Assembly (NCBI GenBank): GCA_903850425.1
Contig: CAINLR010000113.1
Location: 1 to 64,000 of the forward strand
DNA length: 64,000 nt
Direction: 5' to 3'
From: an uncultured Verrucomicrobia subdivision 3 bacterium
Lineage (GTDB): Bacteria; Verrucomicrobiota; Verrucomicrobiia; Limisphaerales; UBA11358
The notes below the pieces were generated by a model. It saw nothing but the letters and a program-made list of their open reading frames with translations, was not told the origin of the DNA and did no database searches. Below are positions 5,704 through 42,276 of this stretch, piece after piece. Each line of letters opens with the position of its first letter. The first letter of the stretch is position 1. The position numbers and the translations under genes are program-made.

Positions 5704-5927
5704 TGGGAACTCACCTTGCCAAACTCGACGCGCGCGGTCTCGAACCGCCGCAGCCGATGCAGAAAATTCTCGAAGCCGTCGCCACGTTGCCGGCGGGCGC
5801 AACGCTGATCGCGCATACGGATCGCCATCCGCTGTTGCTCTATCCGCTGCTCGAACAGCGCGGGTTCACTTACGAAACGACAACCCAACCTGATGGAAGC
5901 CACGTTACCCAAATCCGCCACCGTTAA
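5703..5927 (+). CDS. DUF2249 domain protein (single domain)
   Basis: 74 residues, one DUF2249/TusA-like unit: KLDARGLEPPQPMQKILEAV followed by LYPLLEQRGFTYETT and a C-terminal HVTQIRHR. DUF2249 proteins recur in denitrification and NO-response loci; their biochemical role is not settled. The start overlaps the cupin stop (TAATG), and the last 35 bp overlap the next gene in another frame. The cluster B homologue carries two such domains. Confidence 0.8.
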   Translation: MGTHLAKLDARGLEPPQPMQKILEAVATLPAGATLIAHTDRHPLLLYPLLEQRGFTYETTTQPDGSHVTQIRHR

Positions 5928-7293
5928 TCGCGAAGTGCCGCGTGTGACCCCGCAAACTCAGCCGTTCGGTGCCACCGCGCCGTCGTCCACGCTGCCGCTG
6001 CTGTTCACTATCACCGGCTTGTTGGCGCTGTTTCTTGGCGCGGGTTGGATTGTGGTGCAGCCGGACATCCTGACAATGTATCACTACAGCCCCGGCGCTA
6101 TCGCGGTGACGCATCTCTTTGTGCTCGGCTGGCTGTGTTCCATCGTCATGGGTGCGATGTATCAATTGGTGCCGGTCGCATTGGAAGCAAAATTATTCAG
6201 CGAGCGGCTGGCGCAAATTCAATTTGGATTTCACCTCGCCGGCTTCGGCGGCATGGTCTGGGCGTTTTCGGCATGGAATCTGAAATCCGTTGCGATCTTC
6301 GGTGCGGTGCTGGCCGTGGGCGTGGTCATTTTCATCTACAACATCGCGCGCACGTTGCTGCGCGTGCCGAAATGGAATGTCGTCGCCACCAGCGTCGCCT
6401 CGGCCATCGGTTGGGTGTTGCTCGCCGTCGCGGCGGGATTAGTCATTGTTGTCGCCAAGTCGTATTCGGAATCGCTACCCACGCTCGCCGGTTGGGTATT
6501 CCGCTTCGATCCCATCGGCGCGATGCACGCGCACGCGCACTTGGGCGCGATTGGTTTCTTTCTCATCCTCATCGTCGGCGTGTCCTACAAACTGATTCCG
6601 ATGTTCACCTTGAGCGAACAGCAAAATCCCCGACGCGCAGCGTGGTCGGTGATTTTGTTGAACACTGGATTGGCTGGCTCATTCGTGACGATTCTTTTGC
6701 GCAGCCCGTGGAAACTGGCGTTTGAGCTAGTTGTCGTTCTGGCACTAGCACTGTATGCACTGGAATTGCGCGCCATTTTGCGGGCACGCAAACGGGCGGC
6801 AATAGACTGGGGCGTGCGCGGTTTTCTCACGGCGGTGGGTTTCATGTTTCCATTGTCCATCATTGCCGCCGCGCTTTCGTGGCCGGGTTTGCCGGTGAAC
6901 ACCTACACCATGCAGCTTGAAAATGTTTATGGTTTTCTCGGCCTCGTCGGCGTCGTGTCGTTCGCCATCATCGGGATGCTCTACAAAATCATCCCCTTCA
7001 TCGTGTGGTTCGGCACTTACAGCCAGCACATTGGTCGCGCACAAGTGCCGTCACTCGCGGAACTCTATTCGGCACGGCTGCAAATCATCAGCTACTGGAT
7101 TTTTCTCGCCGGCCTGCTGACCACGCTGCTGGCGATGGAGTTTTCCAACGTCCTCGCCGCTCGCTGCGGCACCGGTCTGCTGGCGGCGAGCCTCGCGGTT
7201 TTTGGTTTTAATGTCGCGACCATGCTGCGGCATTTCGTCCGTCCGCAATTGAAACCACTTCCAAAAACTTCCGTCAACCGCGCCATTTTATGA
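5893..7293 (+). CDS. NnrS/haem-copper-oxidase-I-like 12-TM membrane protein (copy A)
   Basis: 466 residues with about twelve hydrophobic segments. Two His-rich signatures stand out: ITHLFVLG-type (AVTHLFVLGWLCSIVMGAMY) and MHAHAHLGAIGFFLILIVG, followed by SYKLIPMF. These resemble NnrS-like proteins and distant CcoN-like proteins annotated near NO metabolism, but the full haem-copper ligand set is not obvious. A role in NO tolerance or haem-Cu handling is inferred. The start at 5893 (MEATLPKSATV) lies inside the preceding DUF2249 gene; the same 35-bp overlap is kept in the paralogue at 32208. The 3' end overlaps the MIP18 gene by 4 bp. Confidence 0.75.
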   Translation: MEATLPKSATVNREVPRVTPQTQPFGATAPSSTLPLLFTITGLLALFLGAGWIVVQPDILTMYHYSPGAIAVTHLFVLGWLCSIVMGAMYQLVPVALEAKLFSERLAQIQFGFHLAGFGGMVWAFSAWNLKSVAIFGAVLAVGVVIFIYNIARTLLRVPKWNVVATSVASAIGWVLLAVAAGLVIVVAKSYSESLPTLAGWVFRFDPIGAMHAHAHLGAIGFFLILIVGVSYKLIPMFTLSEQQNPRRAAWSVILLNTGLAGSFVTILLRSPWKLAFELVVVLALALYALELRAILRARKRAAIDWGVRGFLTAVGFMFPLSIIAAALSWPGLPVNTYTMQLENVYGFLGLVGVVSFAIIGMLYKIIPFIVWFGTYSQHIGRAQVPSLAELYSARLQIISYWIFLAGLLTTLLAMEFSNVLAARCGTGLLAASLAVFGFNVATMLRHFVRPQLKPLPKTSVNRAIL

Positions 7294-9331: not shown

Positions 9332-10873
9332 ATGAATCGAAACTTCATTTATCCATTGTGCGCTGTCGGCCTGGGAATGGTGTTGTTGAGCAGCGCGGCG
9401 CTGGCTGCCGATGCTCCCGCCAAACCCGTCAAGCCGGCCGATCCTGAAGCAATTGGTCAGGAAGAAGCCGTGCTGACGCAGGCACCGAACGTGCCGCCGC
9501 CGATCAAGCGCAAACATTCGGCCAAGGTCATCGTGCATCTCGAAGTGAAGGAGGTCACGAAACGATTGGCGGACGGCGTGGATTACACGTTTTGGACTTT
9601 TGGCGGCGACGTTCCCGGCAGTTTCATCCGGATCCGCGTGGGCGATGATGTGGAATTTCATTTGAACAATGCGCCGGACAGCAAGCTGCCGCACAACATT
9701 GATTTGCACGCCGTCACCGGGCCGGGCGGCGGCGCAACGTCGTCGTTCACCGCGCCGGGACACTCATCGCAATTTTCGTTCAAGGCGCTGAATCCGGGAC
9801 TTTTCATTTATCACTGCGCGACCGCGCCGGTGGGAATGCACGTCGCCAACGGCATGTATGGCCTGATTCTCGTCGAGCCGGAAGGCGGGTTGCCGCCGGT
9901 GGATCACGAGTATTATGTCATGCAAGGCGAGTTTTATACTGCGGCCGCGTTTGGCGTTGAAGGGTTGCAGCCATTCGACATGAACAAGGCGATTGACGAG
10001 CGTCCGGCGTATGTGGTGTTCAATGGCGCGGTTGGTTCGCTCGTCGGCGACAAGGCGCTGACGGCCAAGGTCGGTGAAACGGTTCGCTTGTTCGTCGGCA
10101 ATGGCGGTCCGAACCTGACCAGCTCATTCCATGTCATCGGTGAAATTTTCGACATCGTCTATCAGGAAGGCGGCACAACCATCAGCCAGCATAATGTCCA
10201 GTCCACGCTCGTTCCGGCGGGTGGTTCGGCGATTGTGGAATTCAAGGTGGACGTGCCCGGCACGTTCATCCTCGTGGATCACGCCCTGTTTCGCGCGTTC
10301 AACAAGGGCGCGCTCGGCATGTTGAAAGTTTCCGGCCCGTCGGATTTGCTGGTTTATTCCGGCAAGGAAGTGGATGCGATTTATCTCGGTAGCGCGGCGG
10401 AAGCCGGTTCCGATTCGGAAAAAAAAGTGGCCGCACTCAAGGCGCAAATGGCCTCCGAGCTCAAGGGCAACCCGAAAATCGCCAGCCTGACCAAGGACAT
10501 TCAAGTCGAGAAAGGCAAGTCGGTTTACATGCAGACGTGCTTCGTGTGCCATCAACCCACCGGCCTCGGTGTGCCGGGACAAATCCCGCCACTGGCAGAA
10601 TCTGATTTCCTGATAAAAAACAAAGAGGACGCCATTCGCGCCGTGGTGATCGGTCGCACAGGTGAGACGGTCGTCAATGGCAAGACCTACAAAGGCACGA
10701 TGATTCCGCTCGCCTATCTCACCGACGATCAAATTGCCAACGTGCTGACGTATGTGCGCAACTCTTGGGGCAACGCCAGCGACGCCGTGAGCGCGGCGGA
10801 TGTGGCGAAAATTCGTGCCGAAGCCGCTGCGCCCGCACCGAACGCGACTCCGGCTCCGAGCAAGTTTGAATAA
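9332..10873 (+). CDS. nirK: copper nitrite reductase with C-terminal cytochrome c domain
   Basis: 513 residues, exported (signal peptide about 1-25). It catalyses nitrite to NO in the periplasm. The two cupredoxin domains carry all ligands: type 1 Cu H121, C162, H170 and M175; type 2 Cu H126, H161 and H317; catalytic D124 (HNIDLH) and H267 (SFHVIG). After a linker, residues about 390-480 form a class I cytochrome c (CFVCH at C403, with M457 in KGTMIPL as likely axial ligand). The fused haem domain makes it a NirK-cytochrome c fusion able to take electrons directly from a donor cytochrome. A Pro/Ala-rich tail follows. The operon order DGC-nirK-nirV-SCO supports active nitrite respiration. Confidence 0.95.
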
Positions 10874-10883
10874 CTAAAACGCC

Positions 10884-11666
10884 ATGTCCGGCCTCCGTCA
10901 TTACATTTGCATAACCGTGCTTGGGTTGCTTGCGAGTGCGATGGCGCACGCGGCACCGCCGGACATGGCCTGCGTTTCCAACGGCGTCTTTCGTTCGCTC
11001 TTCCGTTCGCAGACGGATTTGAAGGAAGTGCCGGTCAAAAGTTTTTATCTCGATGTGGTGCCGGTCACGAACGAAAGATTTCAGGAATTCGTCCGCGCGA
11101 ACCCGCGCTGGCAGCGCTCGCAGGTGAAACGGATTTTTGCCGACGAAAATTATTTGAAACACTGGGCCGGCGATTTGACACTCGGCACAAATGCGCTGCC
11201 GAACCAGCCCGTCGTGTGGGTGTCGTGGTTTGCCTCAAAAGCGTTTGCGCAATGGCAAGGTAAGCGATTACCTACGGTTGCCGAATGGGAAGTCGCCGCT
11301 GCTGCGAGTCCCACGCAAGCTGACGGCACGAAGGACGCGGCGTTTCAACGCGACATTCTGCGCTGGTATTCCACCTCGTCGCCCGGCGTATTGCCCGCCG
11401 TCGAATCCGGTCCGACCAATTTCTGGGGTGTGCGCGACTTGCACGGCCTCGTCTGGGAATGGGTTTCCGATTTTAATTCCGCCACCGTCACCGGTGATGC
11501 GCGCGGTGACACTGGTTTGGATCGGCAGTTGTTTTGCGGGGCGGGCGCGATTGGCGCTAAGGATGTGCAGAATTTTCCCGCCTTTATGCGCTACGGATTT
11601 CGCAGCAGCCTCAAGGCGGCCTACACGGTTCACAACCTCGGTTTTCGTTGCGCGAAGGATTTATGA
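10884..11666 (+). CDS. nirV: NirV-like protein (formylglycine-generating-enzyme fold)
   Basis: 260 residues with a signal peptide (about 1-23). It has the FGE/sulfatase-modifying fold: SFYLDVVPVTNERFQEF, WVSWFASKAFAQW, GKRLPTVAEWEVAA, DLHGLVWEWVSDF and the closing HNLGFRCAKDL. NirV proteins of this type are encoded next to nirK in many denitrifiers and are thought to aid maturation. It lies 10 bp after nirK and its stop overlaps the next start (ATGA). Confidence 0.85.
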   Translation: MSGLRHYICITVLGLLASAMAHAAPPDMACVSNGVFRSLFRSQTDLKEVPVKSFYLDVVPVTNERFQEFVRANPRWQRSQVKRIFADENYLKHWAGDLTLGTNALPNQPVVWVSWFASKAFAQWQGKRLPTVAEWEVAAAASPTQADGTKDAAFQRDILRWYSTSSPGVLPAVESGPTNFWGVRDLHGLVWEWVSDFNSATVTGDARGDTGLDRQLFCGAGAIGAKDVQNFPAFMRYGFRSSLKAAYTVHNLGFRCAKDL

Positions 11667-12382
11667 AGCCAGCCTGCAAAAAAAATCCTCCGCCCGTAGC
11701 GGAGTCTCGGCAGAGCGCCGCTAAATCTCGCGTGAAAATGTTTGCGGCTTTCTGCCGAAAGCCGCTACATCAATCCGGCGCGTTGCTCATTATTTTCCTC
11801 GGCGCGCTGGCAGCCTCTTGCGCGACGCCACCGGCGGAAAAAGTCTTGCCGCCGTGCTGCCGCCCGCTTGCCGCGCAGACGAATTACACGGACAAATCGC
11901 TGTTCCTCCTCGACTCCACTTGGACTTCGGACACCGGCCGCCAAGTGAAGCTCGGCGTGTTGCGCGGCAAGCCACAAGTGGTGGCGATGTTTTTTGCATC
12001 CTGCCAGTTCACCTGTCCGCTCACGGTGAGCGATATGCAACGCATCGAGGCAGCACTGCCGGAAAATTTGAGGACCAACACAGACTTCCTGCTCGTCTCC
12101 TTCGACAGCGTGCGTGACACGCCGTCTGCGCTAAAGGCTTACCGCGCCAAACGCGAATTGAGCAATCAAAACTGGACGCTGTTACGCGGCGAACCGGATG
12201 ATGTTCGCGAGCTAGCCGCGCTGCTCGGCGTGATTTACAAACAAGATGCGAACGGCGATTTTGCCCATTCCAACGTCATCACAGTTCTGAATGCCGAGGG
12301 CGAAATTGTTTTCCAGCAGCCCGGATTAAATTTGCCGACGGATGAAATTATCTCGAAACTTAAAAGTCTCTCCTCACCATGA
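11663..12382 (+). CDS. SCO1/SenC-family copper chaperone, lipoprotein
   Basis: 239 residues if ATG 11663 (overlapping the nirV stop) is used; ATG 11738 (MFAAFCRK) is an alternative. The hydrophobic stretch with lipobox LAASC gives a membrane-anchored lipoprotein. The SCO thioredoxin fold follows with the CQFTC copper motif (FFASCQFTCPLTV) and the distant His (DFAHSNVITVLN). It probably supplies Cu to NirK or the haem-copper enzyme. Oddity: between the two possible starts the sequence is a palindromic REP-like element (11696-11768) read in frame. The 3' end overlaps the DUF2249 gene by 4 bp. Confidence 0.85.
   Translation: MKPACKKNPPPVAESRQSAAKSRVKMFAAFCRKPLHQSGALLIIFLGALAASCATPPAEKVLPPCCRPLAAQTNYTDKSLFLLDSTWTSDTGRQVKLGVLRGKPQVVAMFFASCQFTCPLTVSDMQRIEAALPENLRTNTDFLLVSFDSVRDTPSALKAYRAKRELSNQNWTLLRGEPDDVRELAALLGVIYKQDANGDFAHSNVITVLNAEGEIVFQQPGLNLPTDEIISKLKSLSSP
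11696..11768. repeat. REPIN-like palindromic repeat inside the SCO gene
   Basis: Two palindromic units bounded by GTAGCGG and CCGCTAC: 11696-11722 is an imperfect hairpin (TAGCGG...CCGCTA) and 11744-11768 contains a perfect 9-bp stem (GCGGCTTTC/GAAAGCCGC). The arrangement is that of two inverted REPs. It is in frame with the SCO coding sequence between two candidate start codons. Confidence 0.6.
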
Positions 12383-12627
12383 AGATGCCCCCCATAAATA
12401 AGTTCAAACGCTTTGACGTGCGCGAAATCCTGTCGCGTGGCGTCGAGCCGTTCCCCGAAATCCGCAAGCGCGTGGATGCGCTCAATCCAGACGAGGGCTT
12501 GATTGTCGTCGCGCCGTTTCTGCCGTCACCGCTGATTGAGAAACTGAACAGCGAAGGCTTCCTTTCCAAGCTGGAGCGCGGCAACGGCGCGGATTGGATC
12601 ATTTACTTCTGGCGCGGGGCTGCTTGA
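12379..12627 (+). CDS. DUF2249 domain protein (FKRFDVRE type, copy A)
   Basis: 82 residues: FKRFDVREILSRGVEPFPEI, then EGLIVVAPFLPSPLIEKL and a WIIYFWR ending, a TusA-like DUF2249 unit. It overlaps the SCO gene by ATGA and stands 9 bp before the Crp/Fnr regulator, exactly as its twin at 36824 does. The steady pairing with the regulator hints at a role in NO/redox signalling; that is inference. Confidence 0.8.
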   Translation: MKMPPINKFKRFDVREILSRGVEPFPEIRKRVDALNPDEGLIVVAPFLPSPLIEKLNSEGFLSKLERGNGADWIIYFWRGAA

Positions 12628-12635
12628 ATCCGGCC

Positions 12636-13355
12636 ATGTCCACCGCCTTCAACGAATTCAAAAAGCTGGCTGTCGTCAACACGCTGCGCAGTTGCCAGCT
12701 TTTCACCGGCGTGCCGCCGGCGGATTTGGCGGCCATCGCGGAAGTCACGCTGGTCAAGTCGCTGGAGCGCGGTGAATACCTGTTTCACGAGGGCGATCCG
12801 GCCACCGGCTTTTACGTCATTCAGTGCGGGGCCGTGAACGTCCATCGCGTCAGCGCCGTCGGCAAGGAGCAGATCATCCACGTTTTTCGCACCGGCGATT
12901 CTTTTGCCGAAGTGGCACTGGCCGCTCCTACCGGTTATCCCGCCGATGCCCGCGTGCTGGAGAAAACGCAGGTGTTGCTGGTGCAAAAGGAAGGGTTTCT
13001 GGCCTTGATCAAGCGCCAGCCGGAACTCGCGCTGCGAATGCTCGGTTCCATGAGCAGCCATTTGCGCGTGCTCGTCGGGCAAATCGAGGACCTCACGGTG
13101 AAGGACGTTGAAACTCGACTGGCCAACTGGCTGGTGAAGCGCTGCCCGAATCCGCAAAGTGAAACCACGGTGAAAATCGAACTGCCGATGGCTAAGGGCG
13201 TGCTGGCGGCGGAACTCGGCACCGTCCGGGAAACTTTTTCCCGCACGCTCGCCAAATTCCGCGAGTTGAAATTGCTGTCCGTCAAAGGCAAAACCGTGAC
13301 TGTGTTTTCGCCCGCCAAGCTGAACGCGCTGCTGCTCCGCAATCTTGGCGAATAA
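12636..13355 (+). CDS. Crp/Fnr-family regulator (copy A)
   Basis: 239 residues from ATG 12636. An N-terminal cNMP-type beta-roll is seen (EGDPATGFYVIQCGAVNVHR, RTGDSFAEVALAAPTGYPA), then the long dimer helix and a C-terminal winged helix whose recognition helix reads TVRETFSRTLAKF. The E..SR pattern matches FNR/DNR-type proteins that bind TTGAT/TTGAC half-sites, agreeing with the nine boxes in this window. The FNR iron-sulfur cysteines are absent, so an oxygen-labile cluster is unlikely; a haem-based NO sensor as in DNR is plausible. Confidence 0.9.
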   Translation: MSTAFNEFKKLAVVNTLRSCQLFTGVPPADLAAIAEVTLVKSLERGEYLFHEGDPATGFYVIQCGAVNVHRVSAVGKEQIIHVFRTGDSFAEVALAAPTGYPADARVLEKTQVLLVQKEGFLALIKRQPELALRMLGSMSSHLRVLVGQIEDLTVKDVETRLANWLVKRCPNPQSETTVKIELPMAKGVLAAELGTVRETFSRTLAKFRELKLLSVKGKTVTVFSPAKLNALLLRNLGE

Positions 13356-16343: not shown

Positions 16344-16895
16344 ATGAATCAAGAATCTTCCTCCGGTTTGGAATGTCCGAAACCCGGCTGGTTTCAGGCA
16401 CCGAGCGGCAATGAACGCACCTGGATCGGCATGGCCGTCATCTGGTGCCTGATCCTTTCGGTGATGATGCCCTACTGGCATTTTCGCGGTAAACAAAACA
16501 GCACGGGCGAAGCCTACCGGGTCAAACCCGCCGACTTCGTCAAGCGCGTTGAAGCGTTCGTAAAGGTCAACACCGGCGAGGAATCGCTCGTCGAAGATGG
16601 CATTGCGCCCGTTGTGCCCGCGCCTCCCGGCGAAGTCTATCTGCTCGCCAAACAGTTTTTCTGGTTTCCGGTGCTCAAGCTGCGCTCCGGCGAGACCTAC
16701 CGGCTGCACATTTCTTCGGCCGACGTTCAACATGGCTTCTCGCTGTTGCCCATGAATATGAATTTTCAAATCGTGCCGGGTTATGACCATGTGCTCACCA
16801 TCAAGCCGCAGGCGCCCGGGACTTATCACATCGTCTGCAATGAGTTTTGTGGCATCGGCCACCAGCAGATGGTCGGCAAAATCATCGTCGAATAA
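16344..16895 (+). CDS. haem-copper reductase subunit II with CuA (NorY/CbaB-like)
   Basis: 183 residues: one N-terminal membrane helix (about 27-46) and a periplasmic cupredoxin domain with a full CuA site: H130 (VQHGF), C165, E167, C169, H173 and M176 (CNEFCGIGHQQM). The short single-helix form is that of B-family (ba3-like) enzymes. CuA accepts electrons from a cytochrome c or cupredoxin. Paired with a subunit I lacking the active-site Tyr, it matches the NorSY arrangement described for sNOR. Confidence 0.85.
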   Translation: MNQESSSGLECPKPGWFQAPSGNERTWIGMAVIWCLILSVMMPYWHFRGKQNSTGEAYRVKPADFVKRVEAFVKVNTGEESLVEDGIAPVVPAPPGEVYLLAKQFFWFPVLKLRSGETYRLHISSADVQHGFSLLPMNMNFQIVPGYDHVLTIKPQAPGTYHIVCNEFCGIGHQQMVGKIIVE

Positions 16896-16915: not shown

Positions 16916-18643
16916 ATGAATACCAACTCAGATTACCCCAAACGCATTTGCTCGACCACCGGCTTCCCGATCTGCCGGTCGGCGGAATTCTTCGTCAAGG
17001 CCAACGCCGTGCTGGGCGTTGTTTTCCTGCTCATCGGTGGCATCGCCGCCATCCTGATTGCGCTCACGCGCTGGCAGGCGGTTCACTTGCTGCCGGTGGA
17101 TTGGTTCTATCGCATCCTCACGCTGCATGGCATCAACATGCTCATCTTCTGGATTCTTTTTTTCGAGGTGGCGATTCTCTACTTCGTCTCCACCACCTTG
17201 TTGAAAGTTAGGCTCGCCTCACGCCTCACCGCGTGGATATCGCTGGTCATGATGTTCGTCGGCGCGGTGATGGTGGATGTGACGATCCTCTTGGGCAAAG
17301 CCGACGTGATGTTGAGTTCCTATCTGCCGCTGCTCGCGCATCCGGCGTTTTATCTCGGCATCATTCTCGTCGCCGTGGGCACCTTGATTGCGGTAGGTAA
17401 CTACTTTGCCACGCTGTATATCGCCAAAAAAGAAAAGACCTACGAAGGCTCCGTTCCGCTCGTGGTCTTCGGCGCGACGGCGGCGGCGATCATCGCCGTG
17501 GTCACACTCTTGCACGGCGCGGTTGTGATGGTGCCGACGTTCCTTTACTCGCTTCACCTGTGCCCCCAGCCTGACCCGCAATGGTATCGTCTCCTTTGGT
17601 GGGGTCTGGGCCACATGTCGCAGCAGGTGAACGTCTGCGCGATGGTCGCGGTGTGGTATCTTCTCGCCGCTATCACCACGGGCGCGAAACCGCTGAATGA
17701 AGCCGTCTGCCGCAGTGCGTTCGTGCTCTACATCCTGTTCATCAATCTCGCCTCTGCGCATCACTTGCTTGTTGACCCCGGCGTCAGCGCCGGTTGGAAA
17801 ATCTGGAACACGTCTTACGCGATGTATCTCGCCGTGCTGGCCTCGATGATGCACGGGTTTACCGTGCCGGCGTCGGTGGAAGTCGCCATGCGCGGCAAGG
17901 GTTATGTGCGCGGCCTCTTCGGCTGGCTCACGAATGCGCCGTGGCGCAATCCGGGATTCTCGGCATTTTTCCTTTCACTGCTCATCTTCGGCTTCATCGG
18001 CGGCATCACCGGTGTGACGCTCGGCACGCAGCAGATCAACATCATCGCTCACAATACGCTCCGCATCCCCGGCCACTTCCACGCCACCGTGGTGGGCGGA
18101 ACCACGCTGGCCTTCATGGGACTGACCTACTACGTCGTGCCGCTGTTGTGGCGGCGGGAATACATCCTTAAACCGCTCTGCCGTCTCCAGCCGTATCTCT
18201 TCGGCATTGGCATCTTGATCATGTCGTTCGGCATGTCGTTCGCCGGCTCGATGGGTGTGTCGCGGCGCAGTTGGGACATTGATGCCGGTGGTTCCATCTA
18301 TGGACCAACCGCGCACTTGTTCCTCGCCCTGGTCGGCATCGGCGGCACCGTGGCATTCATCGCCTTGTTCCTCTACGTCGGTCTGACGGTCGGCACACTG
18401 CTCTTTGGCCGACGCATCGCCGCCGGCAAATCCATGGAAGATTGGGGCACGCCAAAAGTGTTGAGCACCTCTCCTGGTCATGACCACGTTGCCCCGGCTC
18501 CCGGTTTCGCGGGTGGTGCGACGGTGGCCGAGGCCCACCCGACGCAAGGCACGATGGTGCTCGCGGTGATTTTCCTGTTGAGCTTCGCCGTGTATTACTT
18601 CGCGAACTGGAAAGCGCTCGCGGACGTGTGGCCGGTGCGTTGA
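16916..18643 (+). CDS. haem-copper reductase subunit I, NO-reductase-like (NorS/eNOR type)
   Basis: 575 residues, about 13-14 membrane helices, from ATG 16916. Metal ligands are in place: low-spin haem H71 and H389, active-site haem H387, CuB H233, H282 and H283 (SAHHLLVDPG, RIPGHFHATV). At the position of the Tyr that is cross-linked to H233 in ba3 oxidases (GHPIVY) this protein has Gln237 (GHMSQQ). Oxygen reductases need that Tyr; NO reductases of the superfamily lack it. With a CuA subunit upstream and SenC downstream the operon resembles norSY-senC of ammonia oxidisers. I infer NO reduction to N2O; a divergent oxidase remains possible. Confidence 0.75.
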   Translation: MNTNSDYPKRICSTTGFPICRSAEFFVKANAVLGVVFLLIGGIAAILIALTRWQAVHLLPVDWFYRILTLHGINMLIFWILFFEVAILYFVSTTLLKVRLASRLTAWISLVMMFVGAVMVDVTILLGKADVMLSSYLPLLAHPAFYLGIILVAVGTLIAVGNYFATLYIAKKEKTYEGSVPLVVFGATAAAIIAVVTLLHGAVVMVPTFLYSLHLCPQPDPQWYRLLWWGLGHMSQQVNVCAMVAVWYLLAAITTGAKPLNEAVCRSAFVLYILFINLASAHHLLVDPGVSAGWKIWNTSYAMYLAVLASMMHGFTVPASVEVAMRGKGYVRGLFGWLTNAPWRNPGFSAFFLSLLIFGFIGGITGVTLGTQQINIIAHNTLRIPGHFHATVVGGTTLAFMGLTYYVVPLLWRREYILKPLCRLQPYLFGIGILIMSFGMSFAGSMGVSRRSWDIDAGGSIYGPTAHLFLALVGIGGTVAFIALFLYVGLTVGTLLFGRRIAAGKSMEDWGTPKVLSTSPGHDHVAPAPGFAGGATVAEAHPTQGTMVLAVIFLLSFAVYYFANWKALADVWPVR

Positions 18644-18675: not shown

Positions 18676-19635
18676 ATGACGACTCAAGCAATCACAGTGG
18701 GGCCGGTGGAACGTTTCGCGCTGCGATTTAGCCGGATTCTGTCCGGCGGCAGTTTCGCAACGTTCGCGCTCTGCGTTTTGGTTTTTTACGAAACCTTCGT
18801 GATGATCATGACCTTTGCGCCGATCGGTAGCGGGGCGATGGGCGGCTTCCTCGAAGAGTTCCGCATTCGCTGCTTCCAATACGAACCAAAGACCGGCTGG
18901 ATGCAATGGACTTCGGTCGCGACGATGATTGCCGAACCCTTGCCGCTGGCGGGCATCATCTATTTCATCTGGCGGGCGCAGATCCGTGAATTGTGGCAGA
19001 CCCGTCGGCGCGCGGTGATTCCGCTCGCCGGCGCAGCATTATTGCTCGTGGGTTTACTCGGCGCGGGCCTCGCCGGTGTTGGCAACCCGGAACCACCGCA
19101 GAAAGAATTACCGTTCCCGGCAGATACATTGCGGAGCGCGCTGCCCATGCCCGCCTTCAAGCTCACGAATCAGGACGGCCAAACCGTTACGCTGGCCGAT
19201 TTCAAGGGCCGCGTCACGCTCGTCACGGCGGTTTATGCCACTTGCACGACTACCTGTCCGATGATGCTGAAAGGCATCCGCACCGTATTGGACGAGCTAA
19301 CGCCAGCCGAGCGCGCCAAGCTTTCGGTCGTGGCGTTCTCGTTAAGCCCGGAGACGGACACCAAAGAACTCCGCACCATGATCACGCAGGCCTATCACTT
19401 TGATTCCGCGCAGTTCAATTTTCTCAACGGCCAGCCCGATGAAATGAATGCGTTGCTGAATCAGTTGAACATCGCGCGCACTCGCGACCCCAAGACCGGC
19501 GAACTGGTTCACTCGGCCATGTTTATTCTTCTCGACCGCGAAGGCCGCATCGCCTACCGGCTGTCTTTAAGCCAGCGCGAATCTTCGTGGTTGATCACCG
19601 CCGTGCGCACGCTGCTCGCGGAAAAATCGCCGTGA
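18676..19635 (+). CDS. senC: SenC/SCO-family protein with N-terminal membrane region
   Basis: 319 residues. The first ~130 residues hold about three membrane helices; residues about 145-315 form an SCO thioredoxin-like domain with the copper motif at C190 and C194 (YATCTTTCPMM) and the distal His in ELVHSAMFILLD. It probably delivers Cu to CuA or CuB of the preceding enzyme. The fused membrane part is unlike ordinary SCO proteins, which have a single anchor, and recalls SenC of norSY-senC clusters. Gap to the next gene is 10 bp. Confidence 0.85.
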   Translation: MTTQAITVGPVERFALRFSRILSGGSFATFALCVLVFYETFVMIMTFAPIGSGAMGGFLEEFRIRCFQYEPKTGWMQWTSVATMIAEPLPLAGIIYFIWRAQIRELWQTRRRAVIPLAGAALLLVGLLGAGLAGVGNPEPPQKELPFPADTLRSALPMPAFKLTNQDGQTVTLADFKGRVTLVTAVYATCTTTCPMMLKGIRTVLDELTPAERAKLSVVAFSLSPETDTKELRTMITQAYHFDSAQFNFLNGQPDEMNALLNQLNIARTRDPKTGELVHSAMFILLDREGRIAYRLSLSQRESSWLITAVRTLLAEKSP

Positions 19636-19645
19636 TTTCAGTCGC

Positions 19646-21751
19646 ATGACTGAAACTCCCATCTCTCAGTTGTTGGCGGCGGATAAGGGAGCCAAGTCCG
19701 CCGCCGCCACGGCACCGGCCGTGCGGGGCGAATCGTTGTTGCGCCCACTGGAAAACTTCTGGCTCTGGCTCGACCGGCTCGTCGAACGCTTCTTGCCGTC
19801 GGCGCTCAATCCCTTTGGCCAGCTCGGCGCGATGGCCAACACCAGTCTCATAATCGCGCTCGTTTCCGGCATTGCGTTGCTCATCTGGTATCCGCCGAGC
19901 GTGTATCAGGCATACGCAGCTTTGGAAAAACTCCGAACCCAATCGTGGCTCGGCCAGTGGGTGCGTTCGGTTCACCGGTATAGTTCTGACGGTTGCCTGT
20001 TCTTCATTCTGCTGCACACCGCTCGCATTATCTGTCAGCGGCGTTTTTCCGGTGCCCGCTGGCTCGCGTGGGTGGCCGGCATAATGATGTTGGCGTTGAT
20101 GTGGTTCATCGGCTGGACAGGCTACTGGCTGGTCTGGGATGTTCGGGCACAACACGCCGCCATTGGCACGGCGCGGTTTCTCGACGTGCTGCCCATCTTC
20201 GCCGAACCGATGTCGCGTTCTTTTCTTACGAATGAAAGCGTGCCATCGCTGTTGTTCTTTCTGATTTTTTTCGCGCACATGTTGCTGCCGCTTGCCGTGG
20301 GCATCGGTCTGTGGATGCACCTGATGCGCGTGAATCGTGCGCGCCTGCTCACTGGCCGGGCAATGACCTGGTGGATTGTCGGTTCGCTCGCAGTGTTGTC
20401 CGCGTTGCTGCCGGCCATCAGCGCCGTTCCCGCCGAGATGACCGTGAAGGTTCAGAAATTCACGATGGACTGGTGGTATCTGTGGCCGCTCCAACTGACC
20501 GACCGTCTCGGCGGCGGCGCGTTGTGGGCGTTGTTTCTTTTCACCGGTCTGGCCACGCTCACCGTGCCGTGGTGGATGGCCAAATGTCGTCAGTCGCCGG
20601 CATGGACGGCCACGGTGGATCTCGCGCGCTGCTTCGGCTGCACGCTGTGTTCCAAGGATTGCCCGTTCAATGCCATCACCATGATTCCGCGTGAAGACGG
20701 GGGAAAATTTGAAATTCAATCGAGCGTCAACGCCGACCTGTGCGTTGGCTGCGGTGTGTGCGTGGGCGCGTGCGATTCGCAGGCCATCAACATGCCCGTG
20801 CTGGAAAGTCGCACGGTCGAGCAATCGCTCAACGCTTGGATTGACACCACGAAAGCGCGCGGCGAAAAGCCTTTCATTGCCTATTGCTGCGATGAATCCG
20901 CCGCCTCATTCCTGCACCTGAATGCTGATGGCACGTCGCCCAACCTTCCTGGCTATCGGATTGAGCGCGTGCCGTGCATCGGTTGGGTGAGCGCGGTGAT
21001 GTTGGAACGTCCATTGCAGCGCGGGGCCGAAGGCATTTTGGTCATCGCCTGCGGCACTACTGATCCGGTGGCACGCGATGGCTGCCAGTGGTTCGAGCAG
21101 CGGCTCACCGGCCAGCGCCCGCCATCCTTCGATCCGAAAAAAGCGGACGCGTCACGCATCCGACTCGTTCACTTGGACCGCACCCGTCACACGGAACTGG
21201 CACGCATCGCTGAAAATTTCCGGGCCAATCCAGTCGCAAGCACTTCGCCGACGCTGCGTCGGCGGACGTTGCCCATTCTCGCCGCGCTGGGACTTGTGCT
21301 CGGACTCGGAACCGCAACCTGGCTCGGCAGCACCTTGCCGTGTCGCACGCCTCATTCACCGGAGCCGGAACTGGTCATTTCGTTTAATCACCACGGAAAC
21401 ATTGTGGCCCCACGCAAATTGACGAAGGAGGAACTCGACGCTCGCCAGCCACAGATGCGTGCCCAGTTCAACGTGGCCCGTGAACGCGTGCCTGTGCGCC
21501 TGCGGGTGCAAGTGGACGGGCAGACCGTGCATGACCAATCCTATCAGGCCAAAGGTCTTTCAAAGGACGGTCCAAGCATCGCCGTGGTGCGGCTCCCGGT
21601 CGCGTCAGGATCGCATATGGTGCTGGTTGAGCTAAACGACAGTGGCAAGCTGGATGATTGGTCCCAGCACTGGTCGGAAACGGTGGTGTTTCAAGAAAAT
21701 CATCTGCGCGTCGTCCTCTTCGATACTGCGGCCGGGTTTTCACTGCATTGA
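19646..21751 (+). CDS. cytochrome b / 2x[4Fe-4S] / MvhD-like fusion protein with periplasmic tail
   Basis: 701 residues. Residues about 30-305: cytochrome b N-terminal-type region with two H-x13-H pairs (H110/H124 and H211/H225) for two haems b. Residues 325-380: two ferredoxin motifs (C329, C332, C335, C339 and C366, C369, C372, C376). Residues about 405-520: MvhD/FrhD-like domain (IAYCCDESAA, VPCIGWVSA, VIACGTTD, RDGC). A membrane helix at about 546-562 precedes a ~140-residue periplasmic C-terminal domain that I do not recognise. It is the last gene of the NOR-like operon and could link cytoplasmic electron donors to the quinone pool or the reductase. The whole domain order is unfamiliar to me. 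Confidence 0.8.
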   Translation: MTETPISQLLAADKGAKSAAATAPAVRGESLLRPLENFWLWLDRLVERFLPSALNPFGQLGAMANTSLIIALVSGIALLIWYPPSVYQAYAALEKLRTQSWLGQWVRSVHRYSSDGCLFFILLHTARIICQRRFSGARWLAWVAGIMMLALMWFIGWTGYWLVWDVRAQHAAIGTARFLDVLPIFAEPMSRSFLTNESVPSLLFFLIFFAHMLLPLAVGIGLWMHLMRVNRARLLTGRAMTWWIVGSLAVLSALLPAISAVPAEMTVKVQKFTMDWWYLWPLQLTDRLGGGALWALFLFTGLATLTVPWWMAKCRQSPAWTATVDLARCFGCTLCSKDCPFNAITMIPREDGGKFEIQSSVNADLCVGCGVCVGACDSQAINMPVLESRTVEQSLNAWIDTTKARGEKPFIAYCCDESAASFLHLNADGTSPNLPGYRIERVPCIGWVSAVMLERPLQRGAEGILVIACGTTDPVARDGCQWFEQRLTGQRPPSFDPKKADASRIRLVHLDRTRHTELARIAENFRANPVASTSPTLRRRTLPILAALGLVLGLGTATWLGSTLPCRTPHSPEPELVISFNHHGNIVAPRKLTKEELDARQPQMRAQFNVARERVPVRLRVQVDGQTVHDQSYQAKGLSKDGPSIAVVRLPVASGSHMVLVELNDSGKLDDWSQHWSETVVFQENHLRVVLFDTAAGFSLH

Positions 21752-31733: not shown

Positions 31734-32242
31734 GTGAGAAAGTTGTCACGCTGGACGTCCGGCAGGACTTGAGCAATGGCCGCGAGCCGTTTTCCAAGGT
31801 CATGGGTGTGGTTGCAAAATTGCAGCCAGATGAAAAATTGCGGATGATCGCCCCGTTCGAGCCCACTCCTCTTTTCGCAGTGCTGGGCAATCAGGGTTTT
31901 AGCCATGAATCAAAACAGATTCCATCTGGTGATTGGGAAATTCTGTTCACACGTCACGGCGGGGAAACGACCGTGTTCGTCCCACCGGTCTGTCCACCTT
32001 GCAGCGCGGCGAAAACTGAACCGGTGCAAATCGTGGACGTAGATGCGCGCGGCCTCGAACCGCCGCAGCCCATGGTGAAAATACTGGAAGCGATTTCAAA
32101 TCTACCGGAGGGAGCGGAACTTCGAGCGAACACGGAGCGCCGTCCAATGCATCTTTATGCCCAGCTTGAGGAGCGCGGATTTGTCGGTGAAACAAAGGAA
32201 CAAGAAGATGGAAGCTTTATTACCCAAATCCGCCATCGTTGA
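31730..32242 (+). CDS. double DUF2249 domain protein
   Basis: 170 residues: first DUF2249 unit at about 1-80 (VTLDVRQDLSNGREPFSKVM, KLRMIAPFEPTPLFAVLGNQ), a short linker with CPPCSAAK, and a second unit at about 98-170 (VDARGLEPPQPMVKILEAIS, LEERGFVGETKEQ, ITQIRHR). The second unit matches the single-domain protein at 5703. The first is closer to the FKRFDVRE type. The last 35 bp overlap the next gene, as in cluster A. Confidence 0.8.
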   Translation: MSEKVVTLDVRQDLSNGREPFSKVMGVVAKLQPDEKLRMIAPFEPTPLFAVLGNQGFSHESKQIPSGDWEILFTRHGGETTVFVPPVCPPCSAAKTEPVQIVDVDARGLEPPQPMVKILEAISNLPEGAELRANTERRPMHLYAQLEERGFVGETKEQEDGSFITQIRHR

Positions 32243-33599
32243 TTCCTCATCAGCGCCGCGAAAAACGTCTCGCCAAAAGGCGACGCCTCAACTCGCCGGC
32301 ATGCAGGCCTCTGCCGTTCGAGTTCCGCTTTGTTTTGTCCTGACCGGGGTCTTGTCTTTGTTGGTCAGCGGCGGAGCCTTGCTGGCGCAACCGGATTTGC
32401 TGGCGATGTATCATTACACGCCGCACCTCATCGCCATCACGCATCTGTTCGTGCTCGGTTTCATCTGTTCCATCGTCATGGGGGCAATGTATCAGCTCGT
32501 GCCCGTCACCTTGGAAACGCAGATCTATAGCGAACGGCTGGTAAAATTTCAATTTGCGGCACACGTTATCGGCTTTGTCGGGATAGTCTGGGCGTTTTGG
32601 AATTTCAACATGGCGATGGTGGGCGCGTTCGGCTCGCTACTGACGCTGGGCGTCGGATTGTTTGTATTCAACCTGGCCTGCACGCTCGCAAAGGTTAAAC
32701 GTTGGAACACCATCAAGTTTGGCATCACATCCGCGCTGCTTTGGTTATCCGCCACGGTCGCGGCCGGACTTTTTGTGACTGCCTCGAAATTTTGGAACTT
32801 CTTCGCCTTTCAGCCGCTCGCGGCGATGCACGCCCACGCGCACCTTGGCGTGGTCGGAGTGTTCGTGCTTATGATCGTTACGGTCAGCTACAAACTCGTG
32901 CCGATGTTCACCCTGAGCGAACTGCAAAGCGAACGGCGCGCATGGTGTTCGGTGGCGTTGATCAATATTGGCTTGGTGGGCATTTTCATCACCGTCTTGT
33001 TTCAAGAACCGTTTAAGCCGTTGTTTGCTCTGGTCACGATCAGCGGGTTTCTTTTATACGGGTGGGAAATGGTCGCAATCCTGCGCGCCCGCAACCGGAG
33101 TGCTTTGGATTGGGGCATGAAATATTTCCTGACCGCCATCGGATTGCTCCTTCCATTGTCCATTTTGGCGCTCGCGCTGACCTGGTCGGGACTGGCGGTG
33201 AACGCCTTGACGATGCAGTTGGAAAGCGTCTATGGCTTGCTTGGGCTGCTCGGTCTCGTGGGATTGGCGATTCTGGGGATGCTTTACAAAATCGTTCCTT
33301 TCCTAGTCTGGTTTCACAGTTACAGCCGTCACATCGGTCGCGCCAAAGTACCCGCGCTGGCGGACATGTATTCTGTGCCACTCCAAATTGCCGGCTACTG
33401 GATCTTTCTGATGGGACTTTCGGGTCTGAGCCTTGCGACGGCTTGGTCGCACGCAGCTGGTATCCGCTGGGGTGGCGGATTACTGGCGCTCAGCCTAGCC
33501 ATTTTTGTGTTGAACATGGGCAAAATCCTCGCGCACTACATCCGTCCTCAAGTCGAACCCTTTTCGAAGAAATCAAATTCAGCGACAAAAACTTTATGA
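32208..33599 (+). CDS. NnrS/haem-copper-oxidase-I-like 12-TM membrane protein (copy B)
   Basis: 463 residues from ATG 32208 (MEALLPKSAIV). It is clearly paralogous to 5893-7293: same length class, same ITHLFVLGFICSIVMGAMY and MHAHAHLGVVGVFVLMIVT signatures, and the same SYKLVPMFTLSE. About twelve membrane helices. Start choice is supported by the matching start and overlap in cluster A. The stop overlaps the MIP18 start. Confidence 0.75.
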   Translation: MEALLPKSAIVDSSSAPRKTSRQKATPQLAGMQASAVRVPLCFVLTGVLSLLVSGGALLAQPDLLAMYHYTPHLIAITHLFVLGFICSIVMGAMYQLVPVTLETQIYSERLVKFQFAAHVIGFVGIVWAFWNFNMAMVGAFGSLLTLGVGLFVFNLACTLAKVKRWNTIKFGITSALLWLSATVAAGLFVTASKFWNFFAFQPLAAMHAHAHLGVVGVFVLMIVTVSYKLVPMFTLSELQSERRAWCSVALINIGLVGIFITVLFQEPFKPLFALVTISGFLLYGWEMVAILRARNRSALDWGMKYFLTAIGLLLPLSILALALTWSGLAVNALTMQLESVYGLLGLLGLVGLAILGMLYKIVPFLVWFHSYSRHIGRAKVPALADMYSVPLQIAGYWIFLMGLSGLSLATAWSHAAGIRWGGGLLALSLAIFVLNMGKILAHYIRPQVEPFSKKSNSATKTL

Positions 33600-34324: not shown

Positions 34325-34726
34325 TTACGTCACGGGGACATTAACAATCAAATGGCCTTGATCGTTCGAGGCGGCAGGCAGGATTGGCAAGTCTCGCTTG
34401 GCCGGTCCTTCGGTCACGTGGCCAGTGGAGTCAAATGTTGAACCATGACATTTGCAGTAAAAAGAATGATCGGGCTCGGAGGAAAGCTGGCATTTCCGGT
34501 GTGTGCAGATGGCTGACAGTGCGACCAGCTTATCCCCTTGGCGAATCACAAAAAATCCTTGGTCGCAGAAATTATTGTAAACTCCGTCAGCGGCATATTC
34601 ACTCGTTGGCCCGGCATCGACCTTCCGCTCCTTGCGGGTGGCGGAACTACCGCCATCGTCCATCGTCTGGCAACCAGTGGCGAGTCCGGCGGTCAGCAGC
34701 AAGAACTGTCGGCGATTGAGCTTCAT
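34325..34726 (-). CDS. Rieske [2Fe-2S] protein, Tat-type lipoprotein
   Basis: 133 residues from ATG 34726. The N-terminus NRRQFLLLTAGLATGC combines a Tat-like motif with a lipobox, so the protein is exported folded and lipid-anchored. The Rieske ligands are CTH (SAICTHRKCQL) and CKCH (FYCKCHGSTFD). It could be the electron-transfer subunit of a quinol-oxidising pathway. It follows the outer-membrane protein gene by 7 bp. Confidence 0.88.
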   Translation of the reverse strand: MKLNRRQFLLLTAGLATGCQTMDDGGSSATRKERKVDAGPTSEYAADGVYNNFCDQGFFVIRQGDKLVALSAICTHRKCQLSSEPDHSFYCKCHGSTFDSTGHVTEGPAKRDLPILPAASNDQGHLIVNVPVT

Positions 34727-34733
34727 CCGCAGT

Positions 34734-35645
34734 TCAATACTCAAACACGAGGCTGGTGACAATGCCGCTGTGGATATCCGCCCGCGCATTGCTGTTGATG
34801 GGAAAAACCAAGCCAAACCCCAACCGTGGTTGCACCCGGCCGATGGTTTTGAGATTGAGGCGAAAACAGGCGTTGCCGACCAGGCTGTTTTGGCCGCTGT
34901 TATCCTTGTTCAAGGGCGTTTCGCCGACCAGTTCAAACATTGGAATAAAGCGTTGCACGCCGGGCAGAGGCAGTTCGCGGTGTTCAATTGCATAGCCGAA
35001 AGTGAAACCGTATTCAAAGGTTTGCAAACCGCCATCCCCGCCGCCACCGGTCAGCGTCGAGAATCCATAAATAGATTGGATGGTCAAATGCTCGCCAATT
35101 TTGGTGTCGTTGAACATTTTCGGGACGAATTCGGGATTAACACTGATGGCGGAACTGGCGGGAATGCCAACTTCAATCGCGCCGCCAAATGTCGTGTCAA
35201 AACATCCAGTGCGGGATACATATTGGTAAAACGGATAACGCGCGCCAAGGTCAATGTTGCCAATACCTTGCGCGACCGTGCCAGAATCAGAATCACGCTC
35301 GTAAGGAATTTCAACTTCCAAAGTCAAATTGCCGAAACCCTTTTCAACTTCGGCGGTGACGACATCGCTTTTGGCGCTGTCATTTTTGGTGTGCAGCCAG
35401 TCCAGCCGGGCCTCGTTGATTTCCAAACCTGAATCATCCACCAAAAACGGTTCCGGAAAATCGCCCTGGCTGTAATAACTGCGGTGGTCGAGGCCGTTGA
35501 ATAGCCCATAGCGAGTGTCTGACGTGGCGGCGGAATTAATGTGGGGCGCCGCCGTCTGCTCAACCGCCAGCGCCGCAGCTTGAATTGAAGCGGCAAAGGA
35601 AACCGTTGCCAGAACGCAGATGGTTTTTTTCTTTTGTAAATTCAT
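34734..35645 (-). CDS. outer-membrane beta-barrel protein, putative
   Basis: 303 residues from ATG 35645 (a second ATG at 35651 adds two). A signal peptide (to about residue 28) precedes alternating amphipathic strands such as LTLEVEIPYERDSDSG, NIDLGARYPFYQYV, FEYGFTFGYAIEHR and a C-terminal GIVTSLVFEY ending in an aromatic residue, typical of outer-membrane barrels. Substrate unknown. In an operon with the Rieske protein. Confidence 0.65.
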   Translation of the reverse strand: MNLQKKKTICVLATVSFAASIQAAALAVEQTAAPHINSAATSDTRYGLFNGLDHRSYYSQGDFPEPFLVDDSGLEINEARLDWLHTKNDSAKSDVVTAEVEKGFGNLTLEVEIPYERDSDSGTVAQGIGNIDLGARYPFYQYVSRTGCFDTTFGGAIEVGIPASSAISVNPEFVPKMFNDTKIGEHLTIQSIYGFSTLTGGGGDGGLQTFEYGFTFGYAIEHRELPLPGVQRFIPMFELVGETPLNKDNSGQNSLVGNACFRLNLKTIGRVQPRLGFGLVFPINSNARADIHSGIVTSLVFEY

Positions 35646-37815: not shown

Positions 37816-38832
37816 TTAAGGCTGGGGCGGATCGGCAAGTTGCAGTTCTTTGATTTGTTGAGCCATTTGTTGCGGAGTCACCGACGACTTCCAGTGGCCG
37901 GAACATTTTCCGTAAACCAGAGTGATGACAAAGATTCCGACGATGCTCCACGCCACCATCGTCGGCCACACTCGACGCTTGGTAAATGCCACACTGACCC
38001 CAAGCGTGTTTGAAACCGGGCAGGCTTCCACGCATTCCAAGCAAAGTGAACATTCATCAGAATAAACTGTGATCAGCCGATCCACCGGCAGTGAAGCCGG
38101 GCAGACCTTGGCGCATTTACCGCAATCAATGCAAGAAGGGATATCGCGTTTGATATGGGTCGGACTCAGCAAACCAGCCAAAGAGGTCAAAGCACCGTAA
38201 GGGCAAAGATAACGACACCAGAAGTTCCGAACCAAAATTGAAAGAATCACCAGAATTGTCAGGACGACAATCGTCGTGGGACTTGGATGCAGGAAGAATT
38301 GCAACAGGCGGACGTCAGCCATTTGATTGAAGGGGCTTTCCAAAAATGCCTCCAAGTCTGCGAGACTCATTCGACAGGAAATGACATAAGCAAAAAATCC
38401 GAGCAGTAAATATTTGATGGAGCGGAGCAATCTGTCAGGCCATTTGGGCAAACTAAAATTGCGTCTAAAGATTTTGCGCCCCACATCCGCCAATTTTTCG
38501 GAAAGCAGTCCGAAGGGACAAACCCAGCTACAGAATGATTTTTTGAATAGAAATGAAAGGGCCAGAATTGCCGCAAAAATTAGCAGTCCCGCTGGATGAA
38601 CCGCATGAACGATGCCGGTCTGCAACCAATAGCGGGCGCTCATGAGCGCGCTGATGGGGAGAAAAGCTTCAACACCCGGTGGACGGGCGGCTATTGGCTG
38701 TGCAGAGTTCAGGCATGAATGATAAAATTCGATGAACCGCCAACCGATAAATAGACAAATCCCCAAGAAAATTAGTTGCACCGTCCGACGCAGGCGATGC
38801 GGCTTTGTCTCATTTTTGACAAGTGTTTTCAT
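37816..38832 (-). CDS. NosR/NapH/CcoG-like membrane ferredoxin protein
   Basis: 338 residues with about five membrane helices. Two CxxxCP motifs between helices (CSWVCPFGLL, CRYLCPYGAL) and two ferredoxin motifs (CIDCGKCAKVCPA, CSLCLECVEACPV) are characteristic of NapH/NosR C-terminal/CcoG proteins that pass electrons from quinol or support cuproenzyme maturation. No FMN-binding NosR domain is present. Transcribed alone from a promoter with box 38881-38894, next to the NO reductase. Confidence 0.82.
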   Translation of the reverse strand: MKTLVKNETKPHRLRRTVQLIFLGICLFIGWRFIEFYHSCLNSAQPIAARPPGVEAFLPISALMSARYWLQTGIVHAVHPAGLLIFAAILALSFLFKKSFCSWVCPFGLLSEKLADVGRKIFRRNFSLPKWPDRLLRSIKYLLLGFFAYVISCRMSLADLEAFLESPFNQMADVRLLQFFLHPSPTTIVVLTILVILSILVRNFWCRYLCPYGALTSLAGLLSPTHIKRDIPSCIDCGKCAKVCPASLPVDRLITVYSDECSLCLECVEACPVSNTLGVSVAFTKRRVWPTMVAWSIVGIFVITLVYGKCSGHWKSSVTPQQMAQQIKELQLADPPQP

Positions 38833-41322: not shown

Positions 41323-41356
41323 GCACAAATTCTAGCCGGTCCCAGACAAAACAAGT

Positions 41357-41457: not shown

Positions 41458-42276
41458 TCAGTGGCGGCGTGAGTCTGGGTGCTTGCGGCCTAGCACCCAG
41501 AGGCCGATGACCGCCAATACCGCCAAGTCGCAAAACAAGGTCGGCGCGAATATGGGGGCACCGTGAACAATGCGCAGAAAGATGTTTTCGCCAACGTTGC
41601 GCCAATCCGCCAGCGCGTGAAAACCAAAACCCAACGCGCCCACTGCCGTCTGCGCCAGCATAACCAGGCCGCACAATTTTAGAAATGTGCGGTCGGTTTT
41701 CATGACCAACGGCACGATCAAAAACCCAACGGCCATGGCGCTGCTAATGACCGGAATCCATTCGGTGCGATGGAAAAATCCATTCTGGGCATGATCGGTG
41801 AGGCTGAAAATAAAATTACCGACGAAGCCGCCGAAAGCGAAAAAAATCACCCACTGGGCCCAGTCCGTTTCTTCGTCGGCGACCATGCGGTTCATGATCA
41901 GCAACGAGCCAAGGCCGGTATAAGCCAGCGGGGCGGCAAATGGCGCGGCATATACCAGGCTGGCCAGCGTCCACTGCTGGAAGAACTGGCTTTGCAGATG
42001 TAGCACCAAGCCGGTGATGCCAATTAGCACCGCCGTGCCACCAACCAGAAAACCAAGCCACCGCCAGAGGACCAGTCGCCGTGTGGCCAAGGCCCACAGC
42101 GCCGGCAGCAACAGCATCGGTGCGGCCAGCGAGAAGATCAGCGGGGTATATTCCGCCCGCGAATGAAAGGCGTTGACGCTGTGCGCGAGAAAAATATCGG
42201 GCGCGAGTCCACCGAGATTAAGCAGCACGAACAGCTCAATCCACGTGCGCGGTCGCCGTAGCCAGTTATTTTCCAT
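41458..42276 (-). CDS. polytopic membrane protein paired with octahaem cytochrome (copy B)
   Basis: 272 residues from ATG 42276 (MENNWLRRPRTW). Closely similar to 3071-3898 throughout, including all the boundary histidines (HSVNAFHSRAEYTPL, FSLTDHAQNGFFHRTEWIP, FHALADWRNVGEN; here the WH of copy A is WR). About eight membrane helices. 11-bp overlap with the octahaem gene, as in copy A. Confidence 0.75.
   Translation of the reverse strand: MENNWLRRPRTWIELFVLLNLGGLAPDIFLAHSVNAFHSRAEYTPLIFSLAAPMLLLPALWALATRRLVLWRWLGFLVGGTAVLIGITGLVLHLQSQFFQQWTLASLVYAAPFAAPLAYTGLGSLLIMNRMVADEETDWAQWVIFFAFGGFVGNFIFSLTDHAQNGFFHRTEWIPVISSAMAVGFLIVPLVMKTDRTFLKLCGLVMLAQTAVGALGFGFHALADWRNVGENIFLRIVHGAPIFAPTLFCDLAVLAVIGLWVLGRKHPDSRRH

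Follow-up and report, generated by a model that had tools for sequence, protein, structure and literature searches.

N2O is the product of NO reduction, and eNOR is a widespread and little studied NO reductase for which energy conservation has been proposed. The locus described here raises the question of what a single protein with a diheme cytochrome b, two [4Fe-4S] motifs, an MvhD/FlpD-like domain, a late transmembrane helix and a periplasmic domain, in this order, does at the end of an eNOR operon. The window (the whole stretch of DNA analysed, 64,000 nucleotides) contains the fusion gene together with the operon and a nitrite-reduction cluster (Table 1).

Table 1. Position of the fusion gene, its parts and the associated gene clusters in the window.
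Feature	Position	Strand	Basis
Cytochrome b / 2x[4Fe-4S] / FlpD / periplasmic-domain fusion, 701 aa	19646..21751 (incl. stop)	+	ORF and Pfam
Cytochrome b helices A-D with H110, H124, H211, H225; residues 39-231	19760..20338	+	Pfam, PDB profile match
Cytochrome b helices E and F with ef loop; residues 232-316	20339..20593	+	hhalign, VIA-align
Two [4Fe-4S] ferredoxin motifs, C329/332/335/339 and C366/369/372/376; residues 317-386, predicted cytoplasmic	20594..20803	+	Pfam
FlpD/MvhD-like domain, residues 409-528	20870..21229	+	Pfam 3.1e-9; MvhD chains in PDB
Seventh transmembrane helix, residues 541-562; on cytochrome b helix G in model	21266..21331	+	AlphaFold2 model, VIA-align
Periplasmic beta-sandwich domain, residues 566-701, no known family	21341..21748	+	Pfam, model, structure searches
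eNOR subunit II, cupredoxin, CuA motif intact (CNEFCGIGHQQM)	16344..16895	+	Pfam, motif
eNOR subunit I, haem-copper; active-site Tyr replaced by Gln, GHMSQQ	16919..18643	+	Pfam, motif comparison
SCO-type copper chaperone, N-terminal hydrophobic membrane part (about three helices by eye)	18676..19635	+	Pfam SCO1-SenC 1.7e-23, synteny
Nitrite-reduction cluster: NirK with C-terminal cytochrome c, NirV-like FGE-sulfatase protein, second SCO, DUF2249, Crp-type regulator	9332..13355	+	Pfam, NCBIfam

Architecture of the fusion protein

The coordinates and the 701-residue length given for the fusion by an earlier sequence-only reading were exact. Pfam matches above the cut-offs were obtained for Cytochrome_B (residues 47-230, 2.5e-19), Fer4 (322-383) and FlpD (411-526, 3.1e-9). 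The fusion alignment comprised 15 sequences, with homologues 28-91% identical to the window protein. Since independent, full-length homologues are present in many genomes, a chance or assembly artefact was rejected. The AlphaFold2 model calculated with this alignment had a mean pLDDT of 75.5, and its membrane part consists of seven helices.

The four b-haem His (H110, H124, H211 and H225) are invariant in 15/15 sequences which, together with the Pfam match, bore out the bis-haem cytochrome b core claimed earlier. The family profile of the 15 homologues matched cytochrome b6 in the PDB (3.4e-35). With the true bc-type cytochrome b of four fusion hosts as reference, hhalign covered residues 52-309 of the fusion (Prob 99.5) and aligned M274-D-W-W277 (20465-20476) with the Qo-site PEWY. 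At these positions, the acidic residue of the family is Asp (D275, kept in every row, that of Defluviimonas too), Pro is absent and Tyr is replaced by Trp or Phe, and PF00032 is absent from the Pfam matches. VIA-align superposed residues 39-317 of the model on QcrB 34-359 (Z 19.1, rmsd 3.6, 256 aligned residues), and many rows extended to residues 565-571, with the seventh helix included. This helix falls on a cytochrome b helix that we take to be helix G. Since helices A-F align as well, the membrane part looks, in the model, like a bc1-type cytochrome b up to helix G, without helix H and with an insertion between F and G. The Qo-like motif (D275) and the predicted fold suggest a quinone site. 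Regarding the membrane layout, the sequence-only reading was correct for the haem core and the late helix, but it had overlooked helices E and F and the Qo-like loop.

The eight ferredoxin Cys are likewise invariant in 15/15 and, with the Fer4 match, bear out the two predicted ferredoxin clusters. The MvhD-like domain was a different case. Its assignment held in the profile check, where MvhD-type chains were the only PDB matches of the FlpD region (best 1.4e-9), while the set of cluster ligands is incomplete in the window protein and missing from two homologues. The window protein keeps C415, C444 and C469, and the canonical WC and DC Cys of MvhD are missing. C444 and C469 are kept in 13/15 rows and C415 in 12/15, the first Cys of L019 lying one column away; L016 and L018 have other residues at all three positions. 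C480 is confined to five near-identical rows, those of the nearest relatives, and the Defluviimonas FlpD retains a GC...DC pair. Hence, neither the 15-row alignment nor the PDB profile gives the fusion the conserved Cys pattern of the MvhD/FlpD [2Fe-2S] domain. With Cys incomplete here and lost in two homologues, the FlpD cluster is, to judge from these sequences, not a fixed part of the machine, and the earlier view of the MvhD domain as an electron conduit is weakened because its ligands are not conserved.

Residues 318-525 are collinear with the HdrA2 C-terminus (NCBIfam NF040770, model positions 568-764 of 777, 2.2e-19). The score of 69 bits, against a cut-off of 1100, and a match limited to the C-terminal 200 model residues do not make the protein a full HdrA/HdrA2 member. 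No second FlpD domain was found in the window genome, and a place in an Hdr/Mvh complex was therefore rejected. The model locates the Fe-S/FlpD block, with moderate security, in the cytoplasmic F-G loop of cytochrome b; this placement rests on the model, in which pLDDT is about 71-79 around the seventh helix.

The C-terminal domain, previously described as an unassigned periplasmic domain, is a predicted beta-sandwich for which Pfam gave no significant match in 14 members. The best Foldseek match was a carbohydrate-binding beta-sandwich (E 2.3e-3), and the best VIA-align match was HGSNAT (Z 9.1). No cytochrome c or cupredoxin electron carrier was noticed among the matches listed by Foldseek and VIA-align and, with the Pfam result, these matches disfavour a redox domain. 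Across nine rows there are no conserved metal ligands, and M604, R605 and three glycines are invariant.

Shortened or split forms also occur. The fusion of genome G056 (L030:2127-3578, minus strand) has 484 aa: an in-frame gap, due to either a real deletion or an assembly collapse, removes FlpD, the seventh helix and the first part of the periplasmic domain. In the single-contig genome G333 (L025:8516-10632, minus strand), the frame is interrupted between FlpD and the seventh helix, leaving the periplasmic domain as a separate ORF.

Operon and distribution in Verrucomicrobiota

The genes for subunit II, eNOR I, SCO and the fusion are separated in the window by gaps of 10-32 bases, with the SCO gene immediately upstream of the fusion gene. 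The NirK cluster lies upstream of the operon, and parts of it are also found beside homologous eNOR loci. Subunit I has GHMSQQ where ba3 oxidase has GHPINY, and replacement of the active-site Tyr by Gln is the eNOR criterion of a published study (PMC8756737). GH.SQQ was found in 13/13 loci with a complete subunit I, and the CuA motif in the same 13. By its Gln active site and CuA subunit II, the neighbouring enzyme is assigned to eNOR.

The same 9/388 Verrucomicrobiota genomes, from four families, contain both the fusion and eNOR. Among 59 closer relatives, the fusion was found in 5 and eNOR in 4; in G007 the fusion is on a 3.9-kb contig and eNOR was not found in that genome. The order subunit II / eNOR I / SCO / fusion is kept wherever the locus is long enough to reveal it, with the exception of L008, where an intact fusion (L008:8001-10118) has neither SCO nor eNOR alongside and no eNOR was detected in the genome. 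Trees of eNOR I and the fusion gave the same groups, including one clade joining two host families, with deep branches of the eNOR tree poorly resolved. The earlier placement of the fusion at the end of a NOR-like operon is thus corroborated by the Gln signature, the joint occurrence and the conserved gene order. In architecture, cofactor ligands and genomic linkage, the fusion is, at the sequence level, a conserved, eNOR-linked single-chain cytochrome b/Fe-S protein.

Neither the window operon nor the homologous eNOR neighbourhoods contain a bc-type Rieske gene, by which a plain cytochrome bc complex was rejected. Between the window and L009, protein identity is 99% for the eNOR core and 91% for the fusion; recent transfer of the core was rejected since DNA identity shifts gradually, which fits ordinary purifying selection. 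No relative was found among viral contigs.

Other respiratory genes of the window and the hosts

The window also codes for a qNOR of the quinol type (NorB with a cytochrome c-like domain, 38995-41328, minus strand), and eNOR is therefore not the sole NO reductase of this bacterium. A Fer4_5 (NapH/CcoG-like) protein adjoins it (37822-38832, minus strand), and a multihaem cytochrome c (Pfam Multi-haem_cyto, Cytochrome_C7) is found at 42272-43498 (minus strand). A small, separate Rieske protein with a signal-like N-terminus and CTHRKC...CKCHGS (34331-34816, minus strand) lies about 12.6 kb from the fusion, with no cytochrome b seen beside it; at L047, in another part of the genome, a similar Rieske lies close to a cytochrome c peroxidase-like gene.

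Two plus-strand genes (5893-7290 and 32157-33593) each match only part of the COX1 profile. Near both there are a DGC domain (8880, 36360), a Crp-type gene (12594, 37081) and a DUF2249-like gene, which make up a duplicated set, perhaps for nitrogen-oxide regulation. In several Verrucomicrobiota, the eNOR operon is immediately preceded, on its upstream side, by a gene for another COX1-like protein that is very divergent (about 500 aa, with a weak Pfam score; L026:6827-8335, minus strand, and L029:620-2146, plus strand).

PF00032-type cytochrome b was absent from 9/13 fusion hosts, the window genome included; the matches in four hosts include classic bc complexes. NrfD-type proteins, possible components of alternative complex III, were present in 13/13 hosts searched, and another quinol route is therefore likely.

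Occurrence outside the phylum

Phyla other than Verrucomicrobiota were sampled through a plasmid collection. A plasmid of the alphaproteobacterium Defluviimonas carries subunit II, eNOR I, cyoE, SCO and a 526-aa cytochrome b/Fer4/FlpD protein, publicly annotated as 'cytochrome b N-terminal domain-containing protein'. The next gene codes for a 172-aa homologue of the periplasmic domain, which has an N-terminal helix of its own. The last module can therefore be separated from the rest, with the division between FlpD and the seventh helix. This cassette ends with a hemerythrin-family gene (L041:14080-14484), perhaps for NO or O2 handling.

In Thermomicrobium and Thermus, eNOR has GHGAQQ and an intact CuA motif, and neither the fusion nor SCO is annotated at the locus. 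The fusion is therefore no obligatory input module, and the proposal of an electron-input module loses ground in that form. A Haloarcula plasmid match was rejected as eNOR, since its motif GHPVVY is of the oxygen-reductase type.

Possible function

The reading we tentatively favour, as quite possible, makes the fusion a transmembrane electron-transfer module that is dedicated to the eNOR system and works without a Rieske protein. Its bc1-type cytochrome b (helices A-G, two b haems and the Qo-like site with Asp275) would exchange electrons with the quinone pool, the HdrA/MvhD-type Fe-S relay in the F-G loop would link the inner haem to a cytoplasmic carrier, and the C-terminal beta-sandwich would dock the fusion to either eNOR subunit II or the membrane SCO. 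In its most likely role, the fusion would transfer electrons for NO reduction among quinol, carriers of the cytoplasmic Fe-S type and the periplasmic side; we infer both the docking and the direction of flow. Occurrence in the same 9/388 genomes, fixed gene order with gaps of 10-32 bases and agreeing trees argue for such a module, as do haem and [4Fe-4S] ligands kept in 15/15, recurrence of the cassette in an alphaproteobacterium, the lack of PF00032-type cytochrome b in 9/13 hosts and the published table row of RME88945.1, a version with haem c. Quinone chemistry agrees with the fold up to helix G and with the helix E/F and Qo-loop homology. On the other side, the Verrucomicrobiota protein has no recognisable periplasmic redox centre, its neighbourhoods have no bc-type Rieske, all 13 hosts have an NrfD-type protein, the Thermomicrobium and Thermus loci do without the fusion, and the genomes of L008 and G007 (the latter with its fusion on a 3.9-kb contig) have no detected eNOR. 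Moreover, the SCO neighbour fits assembly equally with catalysis, which leads to a serious rival, although rather unlikely: by analogy with CcoG of cbb3 oxidases, the fusion may be an assembly reductase. Electrons from quinol or cytoplasmic Fe-S carriers would then pass through the clusters and haems to Cu(II) or to SCO/CuA thiols in the periplasm, enabling SCO to build the CuA (and CuB) centre of eNOR. In nearly all sufficiently long Verrucomicrobiota loci the fusion directly follows the membrane-bound SCO, in Defluviimonas it follows cyoE and SCO, both loci without the fusion (Thermomicrobium, Thermus) also lack SCO at the locus, and the domain layout matches that of CcoG. However, no sequence relation to CcoG and no Fer4_5 match were found for the fusion, its periplasmic domain has no Pfam match (FixG C-terminal domain included) and lacks a conserved Cys/His copper site, b haems are not part of published descriptions of CcoG, and a cytochrome b with a Qo-like motif exceeds the needs of a cupric reductase.

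Readings centred on the cytoplasmic side are less convincing. A ferredoxin (or similar):quinone oxidoreductase, with low-potential electrons entering at FlpD/[4Fe-4S] and reaching quinone through the inner haem as an input into the pool co-regulated with denitrification, is improbable. The collinearity of the Fe-S/FlpD block with the HdrA2 C-terminus speaks for it, and in the fusion haem would stand in for FAD, but the window genome has no other FlpD domain, two homologues lose the FlpD ligands and keep the rest, and the tight link to eNOR and SCO is left unexplained. Quinol bifurcation, very improbable in our judgement, would pass one electron to the eNOR side, and the second would cross both b haems to reach the cytoplasmic Fe-S relay; NO reduction might then, by analogy, drive the making of reduced ferredoxin or an equivalent low-potential reductant. 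It could draw on the Qo-like acidic motif in a cytochrome b fold, on the Fe-S insertion modelled between helices F and G and on a published Kuenenia parallel (PMC12954380), whereas neither the protein nor the operon holds a Rieske or other high-potential acceptor, the FlpD cluster is not conserved and no cytoplasmic partner was identified.

Relation to known systems

The fusion shares with cytochrome b of bc1, b6f and QcrB the four haem His; helices A-G are superposable in the model, and the alignment puts an acidic residue at the ef-loop PEWY position. Unlike these, it has no helix H, an Fe-S/FlpD insertion of about 225 residues on the cytoplasmic side, a C-terminal periplasmic beta-sandwich and no Rieske partner in the operon. 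The order ferredoxin, ferredoxin, MvhD is that of HdrA2 and HdrA-MvhD fusions (NF040770), but cytochrome b is joined in place of the FAD-binding part and the score is far under the family cut-off. The cupric reductase CcoG/FixG/RdxA of cbb3 assembly has a membrane part, two [4Fe-4S] and a C-terminal Ig-like periplasmic domain, and is coded after oxidase genes (PMC7558416). The fusion resembles it in its membrane part, two [4Fe-4S], periplasmic C-terminus and place behind oxidase-type genes, and differs in having b-haem ligands and an FlpD domain, with no sequence match. In Kuenenia anammox bacteria, Rieske/cytochrome b complexes with NAD(P) oxidoreductase subunits are proposed to make NAD(P)H (PMC12954380); the notion that a cytochrome b with a cytoplasmic redox arm may serve nitrogen-oxide metabolism is common to both, but these complexes have Rieske, multihaem c and NAD(P) oxidoreductase subunits.

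The closest published entry is RME88945.1, listed in Table A3 of the 2022 eNOR/NirS paper as cytochrome b6, DMSOR_beta-like ferredoxin and FlpD in one ORF (PMC8756737). In contrast to the fusion, it carries a cytochrome c (C1) domain, as far as the table entry tells. Each part of the fusion is known and, as far as searchable outside a 2024 PNAS paper by Murali and others, reportedly a survey of NO reductases, the single-chain joint and its bond with eNOR are undescribed except for that row.

The fusion combines a complex III-type cytochrome b with Fe-S domains of the methanogen type and accompanies eNOR. It suggests that a cytochrome b is able to carry a cytoplasmic redox arm within one chain, beyond the anammox complexes, and it provides one gene and one protein through which the electron or copper supply of eNOR becomes approachable.
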